DNA from: Strigops habroptila
Lineage: Eukaryota; Chordata; Aves; Psittaciformes; Psittacidae
Direction of reading: 5' to 3'
NCBI RefSeq assembly: GCF_004027225.2
Contig: NC_044277.2
Location: forward strand, 96,779,552-96,843,551
Length of the DNA: 64,000 bases
Shown here: one piece after another, positions 13,201-64,000 of the stretch
Numbering within the stretch: position 1 is the stretch's first letter
How the letters are laid out: each line of letters opens with the position of its first letter
Program-made: the position numbers and the translations under genes
Notes under the pieces: generated by a model
Database searches by the model: none
What the model saw: only the letters and a program-made list of their open reading frames with translations
What the model was told of the DNA's origin: nothing

Positions 13201-15192
13201 ACTAATTAATCTCCTATTAACGCCAGATAATGAGGATCACTCGTACAGCCAGAATAGACTCTGACAGCTACTGCTGGCCTGGGCCACAGGGAGTGGGAGC
13301 CAGGAGCTGGGGGAGATCTGCCTCTGTGCAGCTATGCATGGGTGGGGTGTGCTCCAAAGGCCACATGGGTGGCATAAGATAGACAGCACCAGTGTGTTGC
13401 TTGCATTTACACAGACAAAGTACACACTAGAGATGTGTTACACAAGGCATGTGATGTCTTCCTGGGGCTCTGTGTCACAGCTACTGTGCGCAGTACTTCC
13501 TAGGACACCCATTGCACACAGCACAGATACCCGATGTCTCGGTAGCTCCATGCTAAATAGGCATAATACATCCCTGAGACCCCTGTGTAGCCCTCAACAG
13601 AGGCGTGGTATTAGTCTTGCTTAGTCTTGCTGCCCACAAAATCATTGTCAGTCCTTGCCCCAGAATGGCTCATGCTCTAACTAGAAAAATGTGAGGAAAG
13701 AAGCCCGGCGTAAAGCAGAGTGTTGGTTGATTACAAGCGAATTGCAGCAGCGAGGCAGATGAAGTTCTGCATCCCTGCCATGTATGTTAGTCCCTGCATC
13801 TGAGAAGAGGCTGTGGGGACCCAGTTGTGCTGAATGCAGCCATGCTGTGCGTGTTGGGTGTTGGCTCAGTCACCCTCTTTGCAGGAATGGTGCTCTGGCA
13901 TTTCCCACTATTGTGGGTTTGATCTCCTGGGGCAGCACAAGGGAAGGACATTAGTTCTCTACATTTACCCAGGCTATTTTTGAGCAGCTTTTAGAGGGTG
14001 AAGGTGGGACTTGCAGGACCTCGCCCAAAGGTGATGTTCATCTGCTCTCTCCCTGGCACAGGTGCTGCGGTACTGCCATACCTGCCCGCGTGCCATTGAG
14101 GTCCTGATGAACAGCTATGACCATGTGCGCGTCTCCGAGGACTGGGTGGAGGCAGTTCCGGTGGAGGTTGTACAGGTGAGGGAATGCATCCTCCCAGCTG
14201 GAGCTACTGTGGCAGGGTGCCAGAGGAGGCTTGGGACTGAGCGGGGTTTGGGGCAGGGCTGGGGCCAGGTGGAGATTTGCAAGGCACAGGATTGGTGCTG
14301 TTGGGGGATAGGGAGGATGCACCACAGAGTCATAGAATCAACTAGGTTGTAAAAGACCTTCAACATCATCAAGTCCAACCGTTACCCCAGGACTGCCAAG
14401 ACCACCACTAAACCATGTCACTGGGGGCCTCGTCCACATGGTTTTTGAACACTTCCAGGGATGGTGATTCCACCACTTCCCTGGGCAGCCTGTTCCAATG
14501 CTTGACTACCCTTTTGGTGAAGAAACATTTCCTAATATCCAGTCTAACCCTCCCCTGGTGAAACGTGAGGGTGTTACCTCTTGTCCTATCACTAGTTACT
14601 TTGGAGAAGAGACCAGCCACCTCCTTGCTCCATCCTCTTTTCAAGTAGTTGTAGAGAGCAATAAGGTCCCCCCGAGCCTTCTCTTCTCCAGACTAAACAC
14701 CCCCAGTTCCCTCAGCCGTTCCTGATAAGCCTTGTGCTCTAGACCCTTCACCAGCTTCCTTGTCCTTCTCTGGACACGCTCCAGCACCTCGATATCTCTC
14801 TTGTAAGGAGGAGCCCAGAACTGAACACAGTATTTGAGGTGCGGCCCCACCAGTGCTGAGAACAGGAGGATTATTACTTCCCTAATCCTGCTGGCCACAT
14901 TATTTCACCATAGTGACTAAGGTAAAGGGATGTCTGGTTCAACCTCTGCTGCCAGGGTGGTATCTTTAGCTTTATCTGCCTGTGGTCCTCTTTTCTTTCT
15001 CTGTAGAAATATCCACGTTTCTACCAGTCACTCTTCTCCCTGGAGCAAAGACCTCGCTCCTTGCAGCATCTGGCTCGCTACACGCTCAGGACCTTCCTGG
15101 AGGGCCGGTTGCTTCTGGTCCTGTCCCAGCTGCACCTGCCAAGTGCCTTGCACCGTTTCCTGCTGCTCAGCTTCGAGGATGTTCTCTACTGA
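6902..15192 (+). CDS. ASB10: ASB10, isoform with upstream first exon (exon 1a)
   Basis: This is the alternative transcript model joining 6902-7211, 11402-11669, 12220-12724, 14062-14175 and 15007-15192. It gives 461 codons (460 residues plus stop), and all junction phases agree. From the second exon on, the protein is identical to the other isoform: ankyrin repeats followed by a SOCS box. The first exon supplies a different N-terminus. This includes a helical ankyrin-like segment ([14 protein letters not shown]) and an acidic stretch leading into [14 protein letters not shown]. From memory, that arrangement resembles the N-terminus of the paralogue ASB18 more than the usual ASB10 start. The start is uncertain: an in-frame ATG at 6830 would add 24 residues. 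A strong acceptor ending at 6924 also allows exon 1a to be an internal exon, with the start further upstream. Confidence 0.6.
7212..9928 (+). other. ASB10 intron between exons 1a and 1b
   Basis: No coding sequence is recognised. If exon 1b is a true first exon, its promoter must lie near the right end, where GC content rises after about 9560. Confidence 0.5.
9929..10151 (+). CDS. ASB10: ASB10 exon 1b (canonical first coding exon)
   Basis: The exon reads from an ATG in [10 protein letters not shown] to the donor CTGA|GTATGA in phase 1. Joining to 11402 gives the residues FNIRWLRLWSLSYE, which matches the exon junction I recall for mammalian ASB10 (FNIRALRLWSLTYE). Confidence 0.85.
9929..15192 (+). 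CDS. ASB10: ASB10, ankyrin repeat and SOCS box protein 10 (canonical isoform)
   Basis: ASB proteins are substrate receptors of Elongin B/C-Cullin5-RBX2 ubiquitin ligases. The ankyrin repeats bind the target and the SOCS box docks the ligase. Exons 9929-10151, 11402-11669, 12220-12724, 14062-14175 and 15007-15192 join in phase to 432 codons (431 residues plus stop), somewhat shorter than the human protein of about 450-467 residues. Residues about 25-75 ([25 protein letters not shown]) match the mammalian ASB10 N-terminus. About seven ankyrin repeats follow at residues 87-345, with [47 protein letters not shown] and TALHNIL as repeat cores. The SOCS box occupies about residues 383-431 and ends FEDVLY. 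The chosen ATG is the one nearest the conserved part; an in-frame ATG at 9764 would add 55 low-complexity residues. ASB18 is the main alternative, but exon 1b and the GBX1 linkage favour ASB10. Confidence 0.88.
10152..11401 (+). other. ASB10 intron 1
   Basis: The intron runs from donor GTATGA to acceptor CCCTGCAG. The long open frame 10888-11673 that reads through its right half is an extension of exon 2, not coding. No repeats or other elements are seen. Confidence 0.7.
11402..11669 (+). CDS. ASB10: ASB10 exon 2
   Basis: The acceptor is TTTCCCTGCAG and the donor is CGA|GTGAGT. The exon starts with two bases of a split codon and ends with two. It encodes [14 protein letters not shown] and the first two and a half ankyrin repeats ([40 protein letters not shown]). 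Confidence 0.93.
12220..12724 (+). CDS. ASB10: ASB10 exon 3
   Basis: The acceptor is GACCCACATAG and the donor is CTCAAG|GTGAGG. The exon carries the rest of the third ankyrin repeat and about four more ([54 protein letters not shown]). It ends with [19 protein letters not shown], a sequence characteristic of the ASB10/ASB18 pair. Confidence 0.94.
12725..14061 (+). other. ASB10 intron 3
   Basis: Besides the conserved-element candidate at 13085-13235, nothing specific is visible. Confidence 0.7.
13085..13235. promoter_or_regulatory. Candidate conserved element in ASB10 intron 3
   Basis: A compact AT-rich block carries many homeodomain cores: GCAATAATTACC, CAACAATTAACACTAATTAAT and CTATTAACGCC. 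It sits in a GC-balanced intron. The sequence style is that of developmental enhancers near homeobox genes, so it may serve GBX1, whose start is 13 kb downstream. This is an inference from motif density. Confidence 0.35.
14062..14175 (+). CDS. ASB10: ASB10 exon 4
   Basis: This 38-codon, phase-0 exon lies between the acceptor CCCTGGCACAG and the donor GTACAG|GTGAGG. It encodes [19 protein letters not shown] and the linker between the ankyrin domain and the SOCS box. Confidence 0.92.
14322..14905 (-). mobile_element. CR1 non-LTR retrotransposon fragment
   Basis: The element lies in ASB10 intron 4 in minus orientation, with its 3' tip at about 14322 (AGAGTCATAGAATCA) and its truncated 5' side near 14905. 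The minus strand encodes the end of the CR1 reverse-transcriptase ORF in two frames: 14898-14641 ([20 protein letters not shown]) and 14644-14408 ([20 protein letters not shown]). The change of frame at about 14642 shows that the copy is dead. Confidence 0.9.
15007..15192 (+). CDS. ASB10: ASB10 exon 5, SOCS box and stop
   Basis: The acceptor is CTTTCTCTGTAG. The exon encodes [19 protein letters not shown] followed by the SOCS box and the stop TGA at 15190-15192. The Elongin-C (BC) box reads [11 protein letters not shown], with Ala where many SOCS boxes have Cys. The Cullin-box position reads LHLP where LPLP is usual. The ending [10 protein letters not shown] corresponds to the ASB10/ASB18 terminus. 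Confidence 0.93.
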   Translation, partial: KYPRFYQSLFSLEQRPRSLQHLARYTLRTFLEGRLLLVLSQLHLPSALHRFLLLSFEDVLY

Positions 15193-25970: not shown

Positions 25971-26383
25971 GAGGGGGAGGCGCCTTCCCAGGGGCCGGCC
26001 GCGCCGGGGGGGAGCGGGGAGCCTTGTCCCGCCGGAGCGGGTGCTGAAGGAGGAACTCGACCGTGATGTGCGGAAGATGGATGAGAGCAGAGGGCGACAC
26101 CCCCGCCCGCCTTCCCTTCCCTCCCCTCCCCTCCGCGGCCCGGCCCGGCCCCCCCGCGGCGGGGCGGGCGGGCGGGCGGCTCCGAGCGCGCCTCCACTCC
26201 GCCGCGCCGAGCCAGCGAGCGGGCGGCAGCTCTCGCCGGGCGCCGGAGCCCACGGGAGGCGGCGGGAGCGGGCCGGGGCCAGGGCCGCGGCAGCGGCGGG
26301 GCCCGGCGGCGGCGCGGCGAGTTGGCGGCGGCCCGAGCTCGCCGGAAAGTTGGTGCCGGCTGAGCCGGCGGCGCCCGCTCGCC

Positions 26384-26843
26384 ATGCAGAGACCCAGCGG
26401 CCAGGGGACTGCCTTCTCCATCGATTCGCTCATCGGGACGCCGCCGCCGCGGTCCGGGCACCTGCTCTACACCGGGTACCCCATGTTCATGCCGTACCGG
26501 CCGCTGGTGCTGCCGCAGGCGCTGTCCCACGCGCCCCTGCAGTCGGGGCTGCCGCCGCTGGCGCCGCTGGCCTCCTTTGCCGGCCGCCTCACCAACACCT
26601 TCTGCGCCAGCCTGGGCCAGGCCGTGCCCTCCATGGTGGCTCTCACCACGGCCCTGCCCAGCTTCTCCGAGCCCCCCGACGGCTTCTACCCGCCGCAGGA
26701 GCTGCCTCCACCGCGTGCCAACCCCGACGCCGGCTGCCGGCGGGGCGCCGAGGGTCTAGAGGCGGAGGAGCTGCCCCCGGGGCGCGACAAGGGACCGCCC
26801 GAGCCGCCGCTGCACTTTCCGGACCCCTTCCCCGGCCTGGCAG
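26384..26843 (+). CDS. GBX1: GBX1 exon 1 (coding part)
   Basis: The exon encodes 153 residues plus one base and ends at donor CTGGCAG|GTAAGAG. It contains the eh1 motif, the Pro/Leu-rich N-terminal domain ([32 protein letters not shown]) and an acidic/proline linker. It lacks the long Gly and Ala runs of the mammalian protein, which accounts for much of the shorter length. Confidence 0.95.
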
Positions 26844-29800: not shown

Positions 29801-32800
29801 GTCCATAATCACAGAATCATAGAATAGTTTCAGTTGGAAGGGACCTTTAAGGTCATCTAGTCCAACCACCCTGCAATGAGCAGGGGCATCTTCAACTAGA
29901 TCAGGTTGCTCAGAGCCCTCTCCAGCCTGACCTTGAATGTTGCTAAGGATGGGGCATCTACCACCTCTCTGTGCAACCTGTGCCAGTGTCTCACCACCCT
30001 CACTGTAAAAAATGTCTTCTATCTAGTCTGAATCTGTCCTCTTTTAGTTTAAAAACATTGTGCCTTGTAGTATTGCAACAGGCCCTGCTAAAAAGCTTGT
30101 CCCCAGCTTTCTTGTAAGACCCCTTTAGGCACTGGAAGCTGCTCTAAGGATGCTCTGGAGCCTTCTATTCTCCAGGCTGAACAAGCCCAGCTCTCTCAGC
30201 CTGTCTCCATAGCAGAGGTGCTCCAGCCCTCAGATCGTTTTTGTGGCCTCCTCTGGACTCCCTCCAACAGGTCTATGTCTTTCCTAAGATCAATGAACTG
30301 GGACTTTGTGAAGAACAAAGCAATGGGTCGGTCCTACTCTTCATCTCCTGCCTTCTTGCTGATTTTTTAAAGTCACAATGCTTTGCTTCGTGACAGCTTC
30401 ACTTCCTGTTCAAAGGCCTTTAAAGTCTCAGTAAACCCTCCCACCAAATGGGTGGGTTCCCCTGCCTCCATTACTTCCTCAATGGGGACATACTAAATGA
30501 CTAACAGACCAACATACCAATTTTCTTTGTGAAAACCTCTGGTTTAGACACTATCATCCTAGAATTCTGACTTCCTTAGTGCAAACCCAGCCCTTTTATA
30601 AGACACAAATGTGAGACATGTTAGTCTGCTAGAGACCATCTAAAATGTGGGGTCTGGTTAAGAAGAATGTATCCAGAGAGAGTACCTGTTTTACAAAGTG
30701 CCATGTTGCAGCTGGTAGCTCAGACTTCTTCCAATCTCTTGGAGCACAGTCTGGGCCTACAAAAGCTGACTGCCCCACCAGCACTGTTTCATAGTGTGGC
30801 TGCTGGGATGCTGCCCTCCACCACTGGGGAAGGGGAAGGTCAGGACCTATGAGTAACTCCTGGTGAAGACACTGACATCCTCAAAGAGCTCTCTTGTCAG
30901 GCCTTATGCTCTAATGGACAGGTGCTACACAGAAATGAAAGCTCTCCTTTGGCAAAGTGCTTGCATGAGACTCTGCACTGGCAGCCAAAATGGCCCATGC
31001 CGCCTGCAGCTAATCCTTACCCCCACAAGTACAGATTCTCCGGGTCTTTCCTATACTCCCTACACCTATGGGAGATTTCTTCTCCCGCCTCTGACCCTCG
31101 GGAAGAAAGAGGTTACCATCTATTCTTCTGCAGCAGAATAGAGACTAAGGCGTTTCTTTCCCCCTGCATGAAGCAGGAGGAGCAGGGAAATGATTCCAGA
31201 TCTCCAAAGCCTCCCACTCATTCTCAGGAAGTCACAGACTTGCTGCAGAACCAGCAAAGGATGTGGGAGCTCCACAGCAACCAGACTCCTAAGAATGTCT
31301 CCTGGGCTCAAGCAGTTTCTTGCAGTAGCTGCTTGTGCAGCTTCAGGCATCTGAGGGCTATTCTGCCTTTCCCACTGAGGTGAGGTGTTCAGAGACCCAG
31401 TGGCCCAAGGTGCACATACCTGGACACTGCTTAGAAGCTTGGAGAGCTGCTGCTTCTCCTTCTGCATGTAGGATTACATTGAGTGGCATTGCTTGAGGAC
31501 CAACTCATTTCAGCAGCCATTCCTGCTCTTGGGTCAGACTTGGAGCATTTGCTAGTCTCTTCTAGTCTCAGCATGACAAAAAAAGCTTCATCTGCTGGTG
31601 CATAGCTGGGGGTCCTCTCCCTGTCCGTGACCCCTGGCTATGTCTGGGAGCATCTTCTTGCTTGATCTTCTGGGAGGCCTTTGTTTGAGCCCTTCTACCA
31701 AGGAAGTGACTGGCTTCCAGGCCTCTTTCCTCCCCACTGTCTCCTACCCATGTTCTCCCTTGCTCCATGGCTGTTTAATCATTCAGGCAGCAATCGGGGA
31801 CACAAGAAGCTTGAAAGAAGGAGATTCATACACCTATACCTGATCAGTATCCTTGCAGGCAATGCAACAGAGGTGCCTGCAGGGTTCAAGCACTGCCTTC
31901 CTGAGAGGACCTTCTCCGAGGCCAATCTGTTGAGTAATGTTGGAGGTCTCTATCCTGCCCCTCTGCACAGACTGGTATGGGGAGCTGAGCCCTGAGCATC
32001 AGCTGCCTAAGCAGCTTGTTCCCTGGCTGTGCAGCTCTGCTATAGTGTATCTTGGGGTTAGGGAGGGAGTGCTGGTGGCAGGACACCCCATGTCCCGTAG
32101 AGCCCTGCAGGAAGGTTTGCTGGGCTGAAACCTGGTCTGGCTGCTGTTTCCAGGACCGTCCTTCAGCTCTTCTCGGCTGGCTTCCTTCCGGCTTAACAGC
32201 ATCGTTGTAGTGCGACAGGACCGAGGGAGGGCTGAGGTGAGGGGCAAGGTGCAGACTTTCTTTCCAGATGCGGAGGTCTGGACAAGCCCTGGAAGCGGGG
32301 CTGAGCTGTGGGATGGGGATGGCGGCAGCGGCTGTGGCGGCTCACACCCCAGGCTGCGGGGGTGCTGCCCCGTAGAGTCGGGCAGGCTGCGAGCAGTGCG
32401 GAGCAGCCCGCGATGGGCTCTGGCACGGCAGCAGCCGGCGCTGCCTGCAGCGGGGCCGAGATCGCGGCTGGGGCCGGGGCCGCTGCTCGTCTTGCGGGCG
32501 GCCGCGGGGCTGCGGGACCGGGCGGGCGAGGGGGAGCCTCGGTCGGGTCGGGGCGGGGGGCGGCGGGCCGCGCCGGCGGGCGCTGACGCTGTGTGCCCCG
32601 CAGACGGGAAAGCGTACAGCTCGGACGAGGAGAAGCTGGAGGTGAAGTCGGCGGCGACACCGTGCAGCGAGCGGGAGGAGGAGAGCTCGGCGGGCGACAG
32701 CGAGGAGGAGCCCTTCCTGGACGGGGCAGCCGCCGCCGCGCTGGGCGCCAAGGGCAAAGGCAAGGGCGGCCCCGCGGCCGAGCAGACCCCGCCGGGTTCC

Positions 32801-33124
32801 GGAGCCGGGAAGAGCCGCCGGCGGCGCACGGCCTTCACCAGCGAGCAGCTGCTGGAGCTGGAGAAGGAGTTCCACTGCAAGAAGTACCTGAGCCTGACAG
32901 AGCGCTCGCAGATCGCGCACGCCCTGAAGTTGAGCGAGGTGCAGGTGAAGATCTGGTTCCAGAACCGCCGAGCCAAGTGGAAACGCATCAAGGCGGGCAA
33001 CGTGAGCAACCGCTCGGGCGAGCCCGTCCGCAACCCCAAGATCGTGGTGCCCATCCCGGTGCACGTCAACCGCTTCGCCGTGCGCAGCCAGCACCAGCAG
33101 ATCGAGCAGGGCGCCCGGCCCTGA
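26384..33124 (+). CDS. GBX1: GBX1, gastrulation brain homeobox 1
   Basis: Nuclear homeodomain transcription factor of the GBX family, acting in patterning and neuron specification of the central nervous system. Exons 26384-26843 and 32604-33124 join in phase (GCA G|AC GGG) to 327 codons (326 residues plus stop); the human protein has about 363. The eh1 Groucho-binding motif FSIDSLIG is at residues 11-18, followed by [20 protein letters not shown]. An acidic [10 protein letters not shown] region starts the second exon. The homeodomain is residues 224-283 (nt 32813-32992), with WFQNRRAKW in helix 3. The tail reads [27 protein letters not shown] and GARP. GBX2 is excluded by [17 protein letters not shown] and VNRFAVRSQ, where GBX2 has VKAGNA and VSRFAIRSQ. 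The ATG has a good context (GCCATGC), and the long upstream extension of the frame is GC-driven. Confidence 0.96.
26844..32603 (+). other. GBX1 intron
   Basis: A single 5.76 kb intron runs from GTAAGA to GCCCCGCAG. Both ends lie in CpG islands. The middle is ordinary AT/GC-balanced sequence with a CR1 fragment at 29809-30310. No other gene is recognised in it. Confidence 0.9.
29809..30310 (-). mobile_element. CR1 retrotransposon fragment in GBX1 intron
   Basis: The characteristic CR1 3' end in reverse orientation (CACAGAATCATAGAATAG, then TTGGAAGGGACC and TCTAGTCCAACC) starts at about 29809. Degenerate CR1 sequence continues to about 30310. Frames are broken throughout. Confidence 0.85.
32604..33124 (+). 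CDS. GBX1: GBX1 exon 2, homeodomain exon
   Basis: The acceptor is GTGCCCCGCAG and the stop TGA is at 33122-33124. The exon encodes [14 protein letters not shown], a Ser/Glu-rich acidic stretch, the complete homeodomain ([47 protein letters not shown]) and the conserved GBX1 tail. Confidence 0.97.
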
Positions 33125-33425
33125 GCGCCGTCGGGGCTCTCGGACCCTGGGGCGGGCGGGCCGCCGGCAGCGGAGAGGGCCGGCGCGGCAGGGGCGCGGC
33201 CCGGGCGCCCGCTCGCACTCCTCTGTACATGTCCCTTATTTATTCCGTGTAAACTCTGTACATACGGCAGCGTGTCCGTCTGTCCGTGCCGCGGAGAGCG
33301 CAGGCCGCCTGGCCCCCGCGGGTCCCGGCCGCCAGCCGCGCCGGGCCGGGGCCGGGGCCGCGCTGCCCGCGGGCGCCCGCCCATGTATAGCTGTGATTTC
33401 AATAAATTATTTTCTATGGAACGAG
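33125..33425 (+). other. GBX1: GBX1 3' UTR with polyadenylation signal
   Basis: A short GC-rich 3' UTR contains TGTACATG and TTTATTTATTCC near 33225-33245. It has AATAAA at 33401-33406 followed by a T-rich stretch, suggesting cleavage near 33420-33430. Confidence 0.7.
33401..33406 (+). terminator. GBX1 polyadenylation signal
   Basis: Canonical AATAAA, followed by TTATTTTC, 277 bp after the stop codon. Confidence 0.75.
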
Positions 33426-36400
33426 GCGACCTTCTTCCGCGGTGCTGCCCACGCGGCTGCGCTGCAGGGACGGGCGGCCGTGGCCAGTAGCGCCTCCCGG
33501 CCCCCGGCCCCGCAGCCACAGGGACAAGGGAAGGGGCAGAGACTGCGGGCAAGCGGGCGGCCGGGCACGGCTGGGGACGGCGGGAGGCTCCGGGGGTCGC
33601 CCGCTCCTCGGCCCGTGCCGGTACCGGCGGCTGTGCGGGGAGCAGCGGTGGCCTTGCGGGCTTCATCGGCCCCGGTCCGGTACTGGTGCTGAGGCACGCG
33701 AGGGGACAAAGAAAGGGAGGAGCTGGGAAGCGCCCGGGAGCATCTCCGGGGGTCTGTGGCCGGGGCCGTCTGTCGCTGCATCCCGCAGCCTCTGCCGCTA
33801 CAGCCTGCCCGAGGCCAGGAGCGCACCCCGGGGTGGGAGGGACGTGTGCGCTGCCCCCGGGCTCCTGACACGGCTGTCTCCTCTGCCCCGCCCCGGGACA
33901 GCCGGCATCCCTAGTCCCACAGGCCCTGGGACAGGAGCGACTGCCACCTTCCCCCCCCCCCCGTTCCCCTCGAGGTCTGCTCTGCACAATGGCTGATTGT
34001 CACCTCCCTAAAGGCAAAGCCCTGCCCATCTCATGCGTCTCATGCCAGGACCTGGCTTTTGCTGGCCGTGGGCTGAGGCGAGGTCTGTCCCCGCAGCCAC
34101 CTCGCTCCTGCCCGATGCAGGCAGGATGTTTGCCTGCGGTCCCCGTGCTGCCCTGGCGCGCTGTGCCAGCTCTAAGCACACTCAGCCCCACGTACCAGCA
34201 ACACTTCTGAGGTCCAGTGATGCAATGCGCTCCAGCTCTTCAGGGCTGGAATTCCTGCTAGAAGAGACCTGCCTCGAAGCCTTTTCCCCCTCCCTTAGCC
34301 CCAGGGAGCACACCCCAGACCACAGGGAATGAATGGAGAAATTTTCCTGCAGCTCAGGTGCCTTATTGCCACTGAATCCTGAGGGGAAGGTAAGGGTTTT
34401 GCTCTTCCTTGGAAACCTCAGCCTGTCTCACCAGTACCAGTTGCTGCTTCTCTTACCACACTGCCAAGGCGCTGCAGCTGTAAGCAGGGCCAGGATGGAT
34501 GAGGCACTGCTGGTACCAAGTGTCTCCTTGCCCCAGCCTGGAGCAGCTGCTGGGTCTCACTGCACTGATGCAGGAGAGAGGTTATAGGCTTCCTGAGCAG
34601 AGGCTCTCACATCTAGGCCAGCCAGAGCAGAATAGTCTGCTCTTGAGAGCTATTGCATGAGACACTGCTTCTGAAGCCATTCATCTCAGATGGCTGAGCC
34701 CAGCCCCTGATGAAGATCCAGTTTTGCACGGTACACAGCTGCACGCACAATGCCGAGTTGACAGTGCAAGGACCATGTGATTTCAATGCTGAGTGTTCAG
34801 CCATGAAAGCCTCTGTCCCTGGTTTGACCAACACCAGCCAGCCCAGCCCATGAGGCAAGGGAGCTCATGCATCTGTGCTGTAGTAGCAACACCACCAGAG
34901 GTTCTTGGACAAGGAGAATGTGTTCTCCAAGGGTGTGGGACATGGTGCTGCTTGCACACTAATTGCTCCGAGGTTTGATATGGAGTTTGGGTCACACAGG
35001 GTCCAGTTAGGTGTTGGCACCCTTCCCTGGGAGACAGGGCAACATCCCTGACAGCCAAAGCTGACTTCACCTTCCTAAGTAAGTGCCCTCCATGATGCCA
35101 CAGCAAGGGCTGCCTATCTCCATGCTGCCTGGGGTGAAGTGCTCCCTCCCCATGGCCCTTGCCTCTTAGGCAGGTGTAATCTGTTACTCTGGAGTGTGGA
35201 CCTGTGCTCAGCTGGCAAAAGTGAGTTCTCCTGCAGAGCTCTGTACCCTCAGAGCACTGGTGGGTGGCCCTCCCTGCCCATCGTCTGCTGGCCTCAGTGG
35301 GGTCAGCCACAGCTCAGAGCAGAGCAACTGTCAGGACAAAGCTGTGCTCCTGGATGTCCTAGGTGGGTGCTTCTTTCCACAGAGATGTTTGTTGCAGGTC
35401 CCAGCACAGTTCCGCAGGACCCTTTCATGACCTGGCTTTCTGAGCACCTGCTGGGGCAGCAGAGCACATCTGGCTTCCTGCAGCCACAGCAGGACAGCTT
35501 CTGCCTCTGTCCCCTGCACCACCGGCCTGTAAGGAGAAACTCTCCAGGAACTGCCTGGTTGCTCACAGCATCCTCAGCGTGGGCTTGGCCTGATCAGGTA
35601 GCAATATCTACTGGCATTCACTCTGGATATGGGGAGGTAAATGTCCTCTGGCAGATGACCCCAGGTGTCCAGCCCTCAGAGGAGCTGGCAGTTCCCTTCA
35701 GCATGCAGGGGTAGAGCTGCCTGCACGTGAGGACTACAGCTCAGGTATTCCCTGCTTCTCCCTCCTTGGGTCTGGGTTGTTCAGAGGCAGAGACTGTCAA
35801 CTTACCTACACACGGCTGCTAAAGGGGATAACATGCCAGTTGCAGCAATTGCAATAGCTCCTGCACATGAGCTAATGCACATACCTCTGGGCCAGCTCTG
35901 GGGAGGGTGTGCGGAGGGCAGGGGAGGCAGGATGAAGCAATTGTGCAGCTATAAGCAGTGCTCTGTCACTATAAATGTGTCCACATGAGGGGTCTGTGCC
36001 ACTACAACCTAGCACAGCACAGCAGTACAAGATTAAGCACAGCACTCTGAAAGATGTCCACAGCTCCAGGGCTGGGGCAGCGACACTGAGAGGAGTTAGA
36101 TTTTATTTTAGGGTCGGAGAGCCCCCTTGTTCTCATTTGGCATTTCCAGCTGACACTGTGGTTTGATAATGCCCTGCTCCAGTGCCAGCATCAGTTTATT
36201 GTGTTCTTAACGCATCACACCACCACCCCCCAGCCATGCACACCACTGCCAACTTGAACCCTGTGTGCACATTTGTTCATGGACTGCTGGGAGAGTGGAT
36301 TGGAGAACTAGAGCTTTCAAGCTTCTTTCTTAGGAGTTATTTGGGGTTTAGCTTTTTTTTTGTTGCTGAGTTAGATCAGCCCCAGAGCCAGTGCAACAAT

Positions 36401-36804
36401 GCAACCCTACAGACGGTCATGTTAATGTAACTCCAGATGCTGCAGCTCAGCCTGGTGCTGAGGAGGTGACAGACTCACTGCTGTCACCAGGGTTGCTGGA
36501 GAGCACTGCAGAATAGCTCCTTGTGCTGTGCGGAGCAGAGCTCCCCTGTGGACCTTGTGCATTGCAATGAGCCTGATGCCTCCTGCATGGCACAAAGTGC
36601 TGCAACACACCAGTGAGTGCAGTGAATGCCCACACTGCAGAAGGGGCTGCAGCACCTCCCCAAATAAAAGAGCTGCTGGGTAGAGAGCAGCATGCCCCAT
36701 GAGCTAGAGCAATAGGTGCTGCATCATTTAGACTGGGATGGGTGGGAGGAGGAGAACAACAATGAAAAACTGGGCAGTAAAGATAGACCCTGCCATGACA
36801 GAGC

Positions 36805-37020
36805 CATGCACATGGGAAGGGACCTCAGGAGGTCTCTGGTCCAACACCTGCTCAAAGCTGGTCCTGTTAGACTTCAAGGATCTCCAAGGATGGCGATCCC
36901 ACCTCTTCAGGCCCCTGTTCCAATGTCAGACCACCTTACTTGTATTTTTTTTCCTTGTATCTATTTGGAACTTCCCATGTACCACCTTCTGTCTGAGTCC
37001 TGGAGCCTACTCCCAGTCTT
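36805..37020 (-). mobile_element. Degenerate CR1 fragment
   Basis: GAAGGGACCTCAGGAGGTC, TGGTCCAACACCTGCTCAAA and GGCGATCCCACC are corrupted CR1 3' sequence in reverse orientation. The boundaries are approximate. Confidence 0.6.
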
Positions 37021-37085
37021 GGAGTAGAAACTAGAGTAGGGAAGGAACTCATGTGGAATCCCAAATGCACACACTTCTCAACATA

Positions 37086-37265
37086 CAGAATCACAGCATC
37101 ACAGACTGGTTTGGGTTGGAAGGAACCTCAAAGCTCATCCAGTTCCAACCCCCTGCCACAGGCAGGGACACCTTCCACTAGAGCAGGTTGCTCCAAGCCC
37201 CGTCCAACCTGGCCTTGAACACTGCCAGGGATGGGGCAGCCACAGCTTCTCTGGGCAACCTGTGC
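37086..37265 (-). mobile_element. CR1 3' fragment, younger subfamily
   Basis: Reverse-oriented CR1 tip (AGAATCACAGCATCACAGAC, then TTTGGGTTGGAAGGAACC) runs about 175 bp before breaking into a (CA)n/(TATG)n tract. It is nearly identical to the copy at 43608-43985 over its whole length. Confidence 0.85.
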
Positions 37266-37390
37266 GCATGTGTGCACACACACACAAAGTAAAATGTAGA
37301 TAAAGATATGTACATATATGGACATGCATTTATTTATATGTATGTTTATACATACATCTTTATATATATCTATACACGCATACATATGAA
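37266..37390. repeat. CA/TATG simple-repeat tract
   Basis: Alternating purine-pyrimidine sequence (TGTGTGCACACACACACAC, then repeats of TATATG, ATACAT and TATATATC) directly abuts the truncated CR1 copy. Confidence 0.8.
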
Positions 37391-40124
37391 CAAGACTTAT
37401 TTTGCCCTCATGAAGACAGTTTCATCATTTACAAGAGAATTCTCTCTACCCAGACGTGCCCACTCATATACCTGGACAATGGTTCTTAAAGAACTCGGGA
37501 AGGAGTAGTGATTGCATCCCATGGGGTATTTATTCACTCAGGGATCCCCTCTCAGGAAAAGGTTTTCAGCGCAACAAAGGTGGCTCATGGTGTTCTCTAA
37601 CAATGGGCTTGTATGAAGATTTGGTGGGCCACCACATGGTGCTGGTGCTTCTGTTGTTCATGAGTCAGCCTCTCTGGAACTTGCTCACATGTTTAGCTGA
37701 TCTGCTAGTGACTCAGAGCAGTTCCCCAGGAGGTCACACTGGGCTCTTTTTCCCAAAGCCGGTGTGCAGCGGTGGCCTTCCGGCCCTGGTAGGAGCAGAC
37801 TCGAGGCAGGGCAGAAGAACACCATATGCTGCAGGGGAATCCATGGTGTTGGGGGTTGCCTTTAGGGAGCAGCTCACCATACGCTTGGCCTTGGTCAGAA
37901 GTACCATGCTGGTGTCATCATTGCAGGAATCCTGCAATGCGATGAACCTGTACCCTGGTGGGAAGAAGTTGGCTCTGAGTGCATACGGGCCCAAGAGACA
38001 CAACCTTTCTTCCCACCTGGGAAGGGTTATGAGCTTCCCCCAACCTCCAATTCCTTTACAGCCAGCTCCACAGCAGCACACAGAATTCAGGGTGAAGGTA
38101 CAGAGGGGATCCAGTAGCTAGTCTGGTCATGATGGCTTCAGCAGCAGAGTTCAAACTCCTGGTGGGACTATCTTCAGTGTCAAAGGAAAATGACACAAGA
38201 CCTGAAAGAAGTTATCAAGGGCAGGCTGGATCTGGGGCTTGGGAGGAGAGAGGGATTGTAGCCACACTCTGCTGTGCTGCTGCTTGCTCAGGTGCTGGGT
38301 GAGTTATGAAGCACTTCATGAGAATGCAGTGCTTGATGATTCCTTCCTATCCAGGACTTCTGAAGCCCTTCCCAAGCAGTGGGGTCCCACTTGCCTGCCT
38401 ATGCTGGACCTTGCACAGCATACTAGTTCATGCTAGTGTCCTCAGCTGCGAGGCTAAGGTCTCCTCAGAGGGCTCTGGAGGACCTGTGCTTTGGACTTCT
38501 GCAGACCAGATACCGAGACGTGAATGGGCATAGGGTGAAGGTGCTGTAGTGGAGCATATCGGTGCCATATCTTGGTAAGCACAGGCCAAGAGAGCTGAGA
38601 CATTGCATCACACCTCTGTCCTCTCTTTCAAACAGGCAGGGCTGATTGGAAATGCAAAAGTGCAGACCAATAGTGTTGATCTCTGCTCTGGCCATCTCCT
38701 GTAAAAGCACCTCTGCATGTACCCAGCGTGTGGTCCCCACTGCCTCCCAGCTGGCTAGTTCTGCCCCATGCCATGGCTGCTGCCCCCCTGGAGGCTGTGC
38801 AAGCTCAGCTAGGGCTGTGAGAGGGTTCATGGGGCTTGTCCTGGCCAGCGTCTGCTGTGCCCAGACTCTCTGGGAAGTGTTGCAGACCTGTGATATGGCT
38901 GGTTTCCAGCCTAGGGCTGCACACCATGGATGTGCTCATGACACGAGTCTGCACTCCTTGCTCCTGCCGTGCAGCACCCACACCCTGCTGCAACCACTGC
39001 TTCAGCTTGGTGGTGCGAGTGGTGCTGGCTGGCTGTGGCAGGGTCCTTATGGTGCTGCCAAGGAGTTGGTGTGGTCATCGCTGCTGCTAGGGGCTGCGTC
39101 ATGCAGGGACAACCCCCTGTGCTGCTGCCCTGGCACACTCCTGTGGTGTACAGAGCAGAGCAGAGGGTCTGCCTGGGCCCTCCCCGGCACAAGCCTGAAC
39201 ACAGACACAGCAGCTCCTGCCCCTAAACATGGACGCAGTAGCTCCTGCCACAGCATGACCAGGCCCAGGACCATGTGAAGCCATGCAGGCCACAGTGGCA
39301 CTGAGATGTGCTCGACCAGTGGGATAACACTGGGGCAGGACCAGAGTGCTGCTGCTGGGGCCTGGCCCTACTGCCAGATGGGGGCATGCTATTTTTCCTA
39401 GCAGGGACGCTGTTGTTCAGTGCAAACCCATTCCTCCTGGGGACAGGAATGACATGCCCCAGCCCAGAGGCTGCCTGTGCCCAGCACAGCACAGGCCCTT
39501 GCACTGGGACGGCACACTGGTATGGGGTGGCAGTGCTGCCCCCCTTAAGAAAACGAGGGCCACTTGTGGTGCCAAAGCCTGCAATGGCCTTTGCTCGCTC
39601 AAGAGCTGGAGTAAAGGGCTTTTTTCTTGGCTCTTTGGAACCATGTCAAAACCCACAGAGAAGCTGCTGGTGCTCCCTTCCTCTGGATGCAAGCAGAGGG
39701 GAAGCCCCTGGATCCACAGCATCCATCTGGAAGATGTGGGCAACAGCAGGGCACTGGGTCTGTCTCTACGGGGCTATGCGCTGGCAGTGGTGTCACCACC
39801 AGCAGGACCTGGCCGGGGCTGTGGGTGCCCCGAGGGGGGCTGGACACCCCCATGGGCATCATGTAGCTCCAGGGCTGTGCTCACACTGCTCTTACTGGCA
39901 CGGCTGCTGCTCCCAGCCCCAACGCTGGGGCTGACCCCTAAGGCAGAGCATGGCTGCAGGTGAGGGGTTTGAGTGGAACCCCTAGCTCTGGGACTGGGTT
40001 TGGAGCTGGGTCCAGGTTGTGCCACAGGCCGGGGGCATCCCAGCGGGTCAGAGCAGGGCAGGGCAGGGCTGGGATAGGAAGGGAGGCGCCAGGGCTGGGC
40101 CGGGTGGGATCCCACGCGGGAGAT

Positions 40125-40390
40125 GATGTATGGGCAGATGTATCAGATCGCACAAGATAAACAAGCAGTGAATTTCATCAGGGCCCATCATGGCTTTAAT
40201 TTGGCTGCCTAATGAGTCAGATCCAGCCGCGCAGATAAAAGTTGTCAGAGCCGCAGCCCTAATGAATTTCTTGCCACTTGTAATCAAGGCAGCTTGTCTG
40301 AGGGGGATGATTAATGGGCCCCAGAGGAGCTGCCGTCCCTCGGCTTCCATTCCCGCTAATGCAGTCGCCAGGAAATTAACCAAGCCCAGC
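40125..40390. promoter_or_regulatory. Strong candidate conserved non-coding element downstream of GBX1
   Basis: The 265-bp block differs sharply from its GC-rich flanks and holds many developmental factor motifs: AGATAAACAAGCAG (forkhead-like), GGCTTTAATTTGGCTGCC, CCTAATGAGTCAG, CCCTAATGAATTTC, TGTAATCAAGG, ATGATTAATGGG and GAAATTAACC. No open frame explains it. Its position, 6.7 kb past GBX1 and just before the AGAP3 3' end, suits a GBX1 enhancer. Conservation is inferred, not tested. Confidence 0.5.
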
Positions 40391-41439
40391 ACCGGGCTGG
40401 GGCTGGAGCCGGAGCCGGGGCTGGTGCAGGGCACCTATGTGCGCTGTGAGGAAGAAGGGGGCGAGGCATGAGGGGCAGACATGGGCATAGGCAGGGAGGG
40501 CTGGGACTGGGGCCAGGAACGGGATGGGGACCACAACACTGGCACATGCCGCTAGTACATGGAGGTGAATTAAGGGACTAGAGGGGTTGGGGACCCCATA
40601 TGCAGCCACCATAGGAGAGGTACAGGGAAGAGGCAACAGGGGTTTGGAGCAGACTGCTGAGGGGTATCTGTGGCAGGTGGGGTGCCAGGGATGAGAGCGG
40701 GGTCTCTTGGTGCCTCTTTTCCTTACAGCACCACCACACAGGCTTGGGGACCAATCCCTGTGCCCAGTCCCAGTGCAGCACAGAGCCTGAACCCCGGCAT
40801 GGTAAAGAGGGATGCTGGAGCACCAAACTGTCACTTGTGGTGTGGCCTTGGGTCCAGCTGGTGGAGAACTGGCAGCACTGGCCCTTGCTCAGCCAAAAGC
40901 CGGGAGAAGCTTGTGGGGTCGGGGGTGGTGGAGCAGGGACCCATGGCTCTCTTCACTGCCTGCGGCTGTCTGCACGTTGAGGCTAGATGACCCCAGTCTT
41001 CTGCAGCAATCTTTTCCTCAGGCAAACTACCCAGGCTCCTTGCTTGCTGGGACAGCCCATCACTCCCTGTCCATCTCTGCTTCACCCCCAGCTTCAAACT
41101 CACTGTACAGTGCACAGGGACCAGCTGGCCCCACCACTTCCGACCCGGTGTTTCCTCTGCCCAGCACACACCTCATCCCACCAGAGCCGTGCATCTCTGG
41201 GGCTGTGTCCCTACATTGTCTCACAGCACCTGGGGTTGACACATCTCCCCACCCCAGCACTCTGCCATGTACACCAAGGGGCCCATCTCAGCACGGGATT
41301 GCTGTTACCAACTCCTCAGCAGGAGAAAGGGCTGAATATCTGTCAGTCTGGGATGGGAATCCACCAGGTGCCCCAGAGCAGGCAAGAAGCAGACTGGAGG
41401 CTGCACTGGAGGCCCAAAAGGAAGCACACAGAAAAGCTG

Positions 41440-42530
41440 GCCTGGCAGGAGGTGGGTTGCTTTATTGGTCTTTATCTCCTTGGCTGCAGATAACACACAC
41501 AGGGCAACTCATGGCGAAGAAACAGTATATACAGAGTGTCCATATAAATATTTCCAATGTACATTTTATACACAAGTGACAGAGACGTTCCACAGCAGCG
41601 TCCAAAGCCTTGGGGTTCCAGCACTCAGCTGCAGGCTTGGCCCAAAACCAAAGGGAGACGCTTGTCTCCACTCTCTTCTTGCTCAGCCGGAGACCAGCCC
41701 CGCCTGGGCAGCAGCGGGAGCCAGCGGGGATGCTCTGATGGAGACACTGTGTATGGCTTTGGGGCTTGAACCTGGAAGGACAGTGACTCTACAGACAGAC
41801 AGACACAGCTGGGGATCCCGGGGTGGCCATCCTCCTCCCGCTCTAGGCCACCAGGGAGGCTACGGGCCTTTGTCCAGGAGCTGCATGGGAGATGCACCCT
41901 TTGCATCAGCACGTGGGGAGTGGTACAGCGAGCGGATCCCTCTCTGCACTGGCCAGAAGCAGAGAGGGGTACGGGGGTGTAGTGGACAAACAGGCACCTC
42001 CTGCTGCCCCCCACCTCCCCATGGCACCAAGGGGGCACAGTGAGGCCGACATAGGTGGGAGGGCAAGAGGGGAGTGCCCAAACTGTTTGGGAGAGGCACT
42101 GCAGCAATCACCCTCCCCAGTACCGGCTGTGCAGGGCAGGGCCACACACCTCACCTGCCTCCAGCCCTTGTATTATCTACATGTGTGTGTGGTGGGGGCA
42201 CAGAGAAACTGCCTCTCCTCCCCCTGTACCGGTCATGAGAATGGGGTGTACTGGAGCCTCCCACCCCAGTGGCTGTGAGGGAGCCCTCCGCAAGCTGACA
42301 GCACTGGGTCTGCACAGCCCCATCCCGTCCTCCCTGCAGGTGCATGGGGAGAGCCCACAGGAACTGGCGCAGAGGAGCAGGCTGCTGGCTCCCCGGCCTC
42401 TTCCCAGCCAGAACAGCGGTCCCAGTGAGGGGCAAGCACAGCGGGTGGCCCGGCTGTGCTGCCCTCAGAGCCGCTCCTGTGGCCTTGGTCCCCTGGCAGG
42501 GCTGGAAGGCGGCTGTACGGTGAGCAGGAG
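41440..42530 (-). other. AGAP3: AGAP3 3' UTR
   Basis: Sequence on the minus strand after the AGAP3 stop runs to a polyadenylation hexamer (TTTATT on the plus strand at 41461-41466, which is AATAAA on minus). The terminal 120 bp (about 41465-41580) are AT-rich compared with the rest, as 3' ends often are. Transcript end near 41440 is inferred. Confidence 0.65.
41461..41466 (-). terminator. Putative AGAP3 polyadenylation signal
   Basis: AATAAA on the minus strand, about 1.07 kb after the AGAP3 stop codon. Confidence 0.6.
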
Positions 42531-63145
<20,615 letters not shown>

Positions 63146-64000
63146 CTGCAAGAGAGGCATGCATTGAGCATGGACTACCTGCTCCTCTGAAGCATGGGGG
63201 AAGAAGGAAAAGCTGTCTTGCACATGATGCAACATGGCCCTGCATGAGGACAGGCTGTTTGGCTCTCCTCTCACAAGGGATGCCAGTGCATCACCCCCCT
63301 CAAAGGTGCTGAGAAAAATGCACTGCCCAGCACACAGCACTCCTCAGAGGGACACCCAGCTCAATGGATTTCAGCACAGCACCCCAGGATGCACAGCTAG
63401 GCACCGTGGCACACAGCTTCCACCTCCAGCCAGATTTTGCAGCTGGAGTTTGTGCTCTGCTCACCATTTTCACTATAGCCCCAGGCTATAGTGAAACAAA
63501 CACAAAACCACCCCATCTCACCTCATCCTCGCTCCTTAACTTCACTCCTGTGTGTCCCTAGCAAGAAACACAACCACACTGGAGGCACTAGGAGTAAATG
63601 GGAAATCACATGGAGGATGTCAAAGGGACAAGCAGGGGAACAGAGGTCTGTAAGGTGGGGATTGTGAGTGGAAATGCCTCTTCCCAGTAGCTGGAAACTC
63701 CTGGAGCTGAGCCCAGCAGCTTGAACCCCCAAGAAAAAAGAGTGTTCTGGGGACTAGAGACCGTCACAGAAGACAAGATCTCTCAGTGATTCAAAATGGG
63801 TCAAGTGTTTCTAGATTACAAGAATATCCAAAATTTCCAGAATAGTAAATAGAGCAATTCTGACAGGGAGCAAAAATCTTGCCGTTCAAGGCTGCAGGCA
63901 ATCTGTTAAGGAGGATGACGCTGTCCTAGAGGGATTACCCTGCACCTGCCCACCACGAGCACTTTCCTACACCTTCCCTTAGGGCATTCAGCTCCAGCCA
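63146..64000 (-). other. AGAP3 intron at the right edge
   Basis: No further AGAP3 exon is found before the window ends. The split codon at 63145 shows that at least one more upstream exon must lie beyond it. Confidence 0.7.

Follow-up and report, generated by a model that had tools for sequence, protein, structure and literature searches.

A probable GBX1-directed regulatory domain hosted by AGAP3 in Strigops habroptila, with one noncoding element common to the GBX2-AGAP1 locus

One of the nearest described relatives of the locus considered here is the Gbx2/HACNS1 domain at AGAP1-GBX2-ASB18. In the mouse, a super-enhancer is situated 3' of Gbx2, about 60 kb from its TSS, and a TAD boundary with three CTCF sites separates Gbx2 from Asb18, Gbx2 being transcribed from the boundary side towards the super-enhancer (PMC11344162). 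These enhancers are therefore 3' of Gbx2 and away from the Asb18 boundary, presumably, to judge from gene order, on the side of AGAP1. HACNS1 and GBX2 occupy one TAD, of 480 kb in human, in which GBX2 has the sole protein-coding promoter, and when HACNS1 is knocked in, the Gbx2 promoter gains H3K27ac (PMC8758698). More generally, the TAATTA motif is common in vertebrate conserved noncoding elements, or CNEs (PMC6730951), and has been found in 18-24% of them (PMC11034925), while a hagfish genome paper treats Gbx and Agap as syntenic to the Hox clusters (PMC10927551). In the part of the GBX1 literature that was surveyed, no description of a GBX1-AGAP3 enhancer domain was found; the nearest is a table of GO terms for genes associated with teleost CNEs, which names gbx1 as an example (PMC11034925).

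The window (the whole stretch of DNA analysed, 64,000 nucleotides, C1:96779552-96843551 of Strigops habroptila) contains GBX1, read from left to right, and AGAP3, read from right to left, in a tail-to-tail arrangement. Genome searches were run on the whole assembly (1.149 Gb, 89 contigs). Seven AGAP3 coding exons were located from frame and splice context, four of which have Pfam ankyrin, ArfGAP or PH matches:

26150..26800 (limits approximate), plus strand: open reading frame, which we take to be GBX1 exon 1 from its N-terminal protein sequence
32604..33124, plus strand: GBX1 exon 2 with the homeodomain (Pfam Homeodomain, E 9.2e-25); the presumed target gene
41455..42760, minus strand: AGAP3 last exon and 3' UTR, ankyrin (Pfam Ank_2, E 4.1e-05, under the curated cutoff), with the stop codon and an AGAP1 counterpart on C5
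43047..43305, minus strand: AGAP3 ankyrin exon (Pfam Ank_4, 2.5e-06; AGAP1 74%)
44766..44989, minus strand: AGAP3 ArfGAP exon (Pfam ArfGap, 9.9e-25; counterparts on C5 and C24)
45331..45422, minus strand: AGAP3 exon (AGAP1 counterpart on C5, 59%)
45961..46119, minus strand: AGAP3 exon, C-terminal part of the PH domain (Pfam PH, 2.4e-06; AGAP1 81%)
58281..58447, minus strand: AGAP3 exon with KKHRRKKS (AGAP1 counterpart on C5, 70%)
62971..63147, minus strand: AGAP3 exon (AGAP1 counterpart at C5:6149411-6149551, 65%)

Pfam domains, frames and splice context establish the gene identities and their arrangement, as the original prediction had them. An AGAP3 polyA signal was seen by eye near 41460, and the right limit of the stretch examined for regulatory blocks, 63145, falls within the exon at 62971-63147. 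To the left of GBX1, at 10.9-12.8 kb, Pfam finds an ankyrin-repeat gene, consistent with ASB10. The AGAP3 promoter is presumed to be near a CpG island at 136-138 kb, and the 64-136 kb region to be the 5' part of this gene.

This gene order is collinear with that of the paralogous GBX2 domain. The best other match in the genome to GBX1 exon 2, C5:6274235-6274696 (70%), is taken as GBX2, since it lies beside AGAP1, in which the seven exons have counterparts in order; seven AGAP exons and a GBX gene are therefore collinear on C1 and C5. The linkage of AGAP and GBX on two ohnologous regions, which had been proposed from the outset, is thus real; that of ASB, proposed along with it, is found on C1 in the form of the ankyrin-repeat gene, the ASB side having been observed there only. 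From what is known of these gene families, the GBX-AGAP duplication would be the early vertebrate one. A third AGAP-type ArfGAP match, at C24:1787987-1788208, is probably AGAP2; on C24, homeobox matches with at most 58% identity to GBX1 also follow one another at about 1.08-1.20 Mb.

The initial reading of the locus started from blocks of TAAT/ATTA cores in the AGAP3 introns and the spacer. A cluster was defined as at least four such cores in 300 bp, with known exons and CR1-like repeats masked, and core counts were compared with 500 dinucleotide shuffles in 1-kb tiles. The blocks stood up to this comparison: in 40125-63145, there are 95 cores versus 47.5±6.6 after shuffling (about twofold) and 11 clusters versus 2.7±1.4 (about fourfold), and none of the 500 shuffles had as many of either, which establishes that the clustering is non-random. 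ATTA comes top among AT-only 4-mers at both tile sizes (z 6.2 and 7.1); among all 4-mers, tiles of 200 bp put it third and tiles of 1000 bp put it first, with AAAT close behind. Within 33430-64000, one of the 11 clusters is in the spacer and ten are candidate elements in AGAP3 introns, between the exons at 45961-46119 and 62971-63147. The spacer as a whole (33430-41454) has no excess of cores (15 versus 16.8), only a single dense block, and the GBX1 intron has no TAAT excess in the same shuffle test. The left side of the window (1-25000) is also TAAT-rich, with 161 cores versus 119.4±11.0 and 19 clusters versus 11.6. The 11 blocks, to which no strand is assigned, are:

40197..40572: TAAT block 1, 9 cores, 14 CpGs, o/e 0.45; 59% GC
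47505..47809: TAAT block 2, 8 cores, 4 CpGs, o/e 0.26
51240..51453: TAAT block 3, 5 cores, 9 CpGs, o/e 0.70
52463..52595: TAAT block 4, 4 cores, 3 CpGs, o/e 0.51
53344..53717: TAAT block 5, 6 cores, 17 CpGs, o/e 0.67
54738..54961: TAAT block 6, 4 cores, 2 CpGs, o/e 0.17; weak
56094..56152: TAAT block 7, no CpG; repeat-derived
56425..56613: TAAT block 8, 5 cores, 4 CpGs, o/e 0.41; weak
57924..58082: TAAT block 9, 7 cores, 2 CpGs, o/e 0.44; weak
59102..59228: TAAT block 10, 9 cores in 127 bp, 4 CpGs, o/e 0.79
62027..62577: TAAT block 11, 9 cores, 28 CpGs, o/e 0.72; 53% GC

In their excess and clustering of TAAT/ATTA, these blocks resemble the TAATTA-rich CNEs of vertebrates; they differ from them in that not all are AT-rich relative to their flanks. 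The description of the blocks as AT-rich has to be given up for 40197-40572, which at 59% GC is like its flanks, and 62027-62577 has 53% GC. At least eight were said to retain CpG, and eight of the 11 do have an o/e of at least 0.40, but four of those eight hold merely 2-4 CpGs.

Block 7 was rejected as a regulatory element because it lies inside an interspersed repeat (about 56058-56192) found at three other places in the genome, which resembles an old CR1 coding fragment. Searches of the genome with 51200-51480 and, at E 0.001, with 62020-62600 gave self-matches only, and repeat behaviour, in the sense of copies at unlinked places, was not seen for either of these or for 40125-40420. The stretch 58900-62970, which contains block 10, also matched only itself, which is weak evidence of absence since so long a query is perhaps less sensitive. 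Six blocks are good candidates, namely 40155-40572, 47505-47809, 51240-51453, 53344-53717, 59102-59228 and 62027-62577, the rest being weaker. The window also contains CR1-like copies at 14323-14800, 29804-30345, 37085-37265, 43605-43990, 48880-48976 and 51650-51697, with a mutual identity of up to 93%. An intron stretch at 44100-44530 appears by eye to keep CpG, with GATA and few TAAT cores.

Pooled over the 11 clusters (33430-64000), CpG o/e is 0.54 versus 0.22 outside, a value equalled by none of 731 circular shifts, and the retention holds under four cluster settings, three of them new (0/431 shifts each). It is unevenly distributed: 68 of the 87 cluster CpGs come from four blocks (40197-40572, 51240-51453, 53344-53717 and 62027-62577), whereas seven of the 11 have at most four CpGs and three have an o/e below 0.3. 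In 250-bp windows, the TAAT count is correlated with CpG o/e on the GBX1-AGAP3 side (rho 0.26, p 0.01, 97 windows) and uncorrelated on the left side (rho -0.07, 96 windows). When clusters were seeded with other words, those of AATT kept CpG too (o/e 0.58, 0/431 shifts), those of TTAA were intermediate (o/e 0.49, 8/431), and weaker words had their value reached by more of the 431 shifts (AAAT 48, TAAA 45, AATA 49, AAAA 103, ATAA 216). Homeodomain-like words are therefore the strongest for the CpG effect, and TAAT is not unique among them. The retention is best read as constraint; germline hypomethylation is a possible alternative, and the methylation of ultraconserved noncoding elements (UCNEs) is described as variable (PMC5836973).

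For comparison, the flanks were taken in as far as 50 kb left and 80 kb right of the window. These control stretches were masked for window-like CR1 copies alone and still contain repeats of other kinds, as well as CpG islands and unlocated exons. The 44 clusters between -50 and 25 kb have a CpG o/e of 0.19 versus 0.29 outside, the latter value being inflated by the CpG islands present there; positions 1-25000 alone show a slight retention (0.215 versus 0.158; 19/653 shifts reach the value). On the other side, 25 clusters at 63-134 kb have 0.25 versus 0.21 (147/1123 shifts); the result is borderline at 64-100 kb (19 clusters, 0.25 versus 0.20, 29/558 shifts) and null at 100-136 kb (six clusters, 0.23 versus 0.23, 268/569 shifts). 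With little or no CpG retention in the flanks, the strong signature is therefore concentrated at 40.2-62.6 kb, that is, between the 3' side of GBX1 and the 3' part of AGAP3, if AGAP3 starts near 136-138 kb. On the ASB10 side, a TAAT cluster at 1882-2092, with 12 CpGs and an o/e of 1.06, is unlike its neighbours; it may represent an isolated conserved element or else a repeat rich in CpG.

One stretch of the spacer, overlapping block 1, has a counterpart at the GBX2 locus:

40155..40247, no strand assigned: putative duplicated conserved noncoding element, whose sister copy in this genome is C5:6271881-6271983, in the spacer between GBX2 and AGAP1

In a comparison of the masked window with 130 kb of C5, the two copies agree at 79 of 104 positions (68 bits, E 2.4e-11), and in the core, 40186-40222, they share 36 of 37 bases. 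E ranged from 9e-12 to 2.4e-11 across C5 targets of 50 to 130 kb, and reversed-sequence controls against C5 gave nothing better than 0.14. Both copies are in gene orientation, downstream of GBX, and are flanked by GBX exon 2 on one side and by the last AGAP exons on the other; the C5 copy follows the GBX2 coding match by about 2.3 kb. When 40125-40420 was searched against the genome at E 10, it found only itself and the C5 place (87% over 61 bp, E 2.7e-11), and it is thus not a dispersed repeat; the absence of a third place rests on a search that scores its best candidates only. Like known duplicated CNEs (dCNEs), 40155-40247 is noncoding, is common to two paralogous developmental loci in the same relative place, and has one reported counterpart there, with order and orientation kept; the difference is that the comparison here was made within one genome. 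Its behaviour is that of a duplicated conserved noncoding element, and the presence of one spacer element at both GBX1 and GBX2, within this one genome, is the specific new datum of the analysis. A run of Ns (C5:6271556-6271868) directly adjoins the GBX2 copy, so the length of the element on C5 cannot be judged. Near this copy, C5:6272329-6272839 is a TAAT cluster with 30 CpGs (o/e 0.87) and a candidate GBX2 element.

Fourteen block queries, made up of ten pieces covering the 11 clusters and four chosen by eye (44100-44530, 54150-54360, 59840-60000 and 61370-61420), were compared with 120 kb of C5. Three matched at E 0.05, as against none of 14 hand-chosen control pieces, and one match, that of 40155-40247, was convincing. 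The other two, 44228-44309 (E 0.007) and 59873-59910 (E 0.045), were discarded as ohnologs because they match C5 introns that do not correspond, which leaves 13 of the 14 queries with no convincing ohnolog in these 120 kb. The whole masked window, compared with 130 kb spanning all seven AGAP1 exon counterparts and containing some N runs, yielded no further noncoding ohnolog; matches of 14808-14897 in C5 were rejected as the flank of a CR1-like copy. A comparison of the 64-144 kb flank with C5 was swamped by apparent repeats and was excluded from the results. The conservation expected of the blocks is thus present for 40155-40247, through its ohnolog only. At the GBX2 locus, nine of 85 TAAT clusters in 110 kb reach a CpG o/e of 0.4, and CpG retention is therefore neither a required mark of such a domain nor a general property of the TAAT clusters there.

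How are these blocks to be explained? One answer would be that they are real enhancers of AGAP3 itself, a neurally expressed gene, with GBX1 a mere neighbour. Ten of the 11 blocks do lie in AGAP3 introns. However, the signature peaks where AGAP3 faces GBX1 and is much weaker at 64-136 kb, the presumed 5' part; the best element is between the genes, and its ohnolog is close to the GBX2 coding match; moreover, in the paralogous human TAD, GBX2 is alone in having a protein-coding promoter (PMC8758698). We consider this explanation improbable. Another possibility is that most blocks are unconstrained AT-rich islands, with 40155-40247 alone conserved, in which case the "landscape" would be a pattern of composition. 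It could draw on the single ohnolog among 14 queries, on the TAAT excess at 1-25000, on the block that is a repeat, and on the seven blocks with four CpGs or fewer. Against this, the pooled CpG retention goes beyond the shift controls here and is weak or absent in the adjoining 75 kb and 71 kb; furthermore, most CNEs have no paralogous copy, dCNEs making up 9% of the CNEs even in 13 loci chosen as dCNE-rich (PMC2781166). We regard this explanation, too, as unlikely. A third possibility, that 40155-40247 is transcribed at both loci, whether as a distant 3' exon of GBX or as a conserved noncoding RNA, is very unlikely. In its favour are the position of the element, which follows both GBX genes with its orientation unchanged, and the mere 2.3 kb or so that separate it from the GBX2 coding match. 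Against it, a GBX1 AATAAA, seen by eye near 33401, precedes the element by about 6.8 kb, and a search of the window with Rfam at gathering scores gave no match, a result that is silent on undescribed RNAs.

The best explanation, and in our view quite a probable one, is a GBX1-directed enhancer domain hosted by AGAP3, in other words a genomic regulatory block. As in such blocks, there is a developmental transcription factor gene, a neighbour with CNE-like blocks as candidate elements in its introns, and a long-lived synteny of target and bystander, seen in both ohnologous regions; in contrast to them, conservation has been found for one element only, from an ohnolog in one genome, so that the conserved-element array is represented by one of 14 queries, and CpG retention is indirect. 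The regulatory-block reading thus owes its standing to the reality of the blocks, the element kept in both spacers and the precedent of the paralogue, but one of its original arguments has to be abandoned. It had been reasoned that a broadly expressed GTPase-activating gene would not need TAAT motifs, whereas a neighbouring homeobox gene would. The cores show possible binders, not the target, and because TAATTA marks vertebrate CNEs generally, they make the blocks look CNE-like without pointing to GBX1; TAAT content was accordingly rejected as proof of GBX1 targeting. The case for GBX1 is built instead on where the blocks lie, on the element that both loci have kept next to GBX, and on the experiments on the paralogue. 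By analogy, the concentration of the signature at 40.2-62.6 kb fits the mouse Gbx2 layout. CTCF-like sites (seven in 194 kb versus one in the reversed sequence, none at 12.5-26 kb) were uninformative, having been sought with one consensus. The GBX2/HACNS1 domain has been tested by experiment, whereas the present one is proposed from its sequence, and the cluster of blocks covers about 22 kb, compared with the 480 kb of the human GBX2 TAD. The GBX1-AGAP3 system is well supported, though of an ordinary kind.

In such a domain, the spacer and the 3' AGAP3 introns (40.2-62.6 kb) would contain clustered cis-regulatory modules of CNE type, to which homeodomain proteins and other developmental factors would bind. 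These modules would regulate the GBX1 promoter from afar, and AGAP3 would be their host or a bystander. From the above, we infer enhancer activity, GBX1 as the target, looping, and a role of the elements in keeping the genes linked. The element at 40155-40247, the nearest to GBX1, would have stood between the ancestral GBX and AGAP before the duplication and been retained in both copies, while the remaining elements would have diverged beyond recognition or arisen later.

What this means for the GBX family is, in the first place, practical: the 22-kb interval and the one duplicated element constitute a small set of fragments that can be tested, and the GBX1 and GBX2 landscapes allow a direct comparison of how ohnologous landscapes diverged. 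By analogy with HACNS1, which lies near AGAP1 and acts on Gbx2, our results suggest that intronic variants of AGAP3 may act via GBX1. It can be proposed, tentatively and with rather more doubt than confidence, that AGAP and GBX together formed a regulatory unit that predates the genome duplications of early vertebrates, with one element 3' of GBX as its core and the others replaced or reworked. If this were true, 40155-40247 and its C5 sister would be a founding enhancer or a promoter tether that locked AGAP to GBX, and this founding element would still drive the expression common to GBX1 and GBX2.
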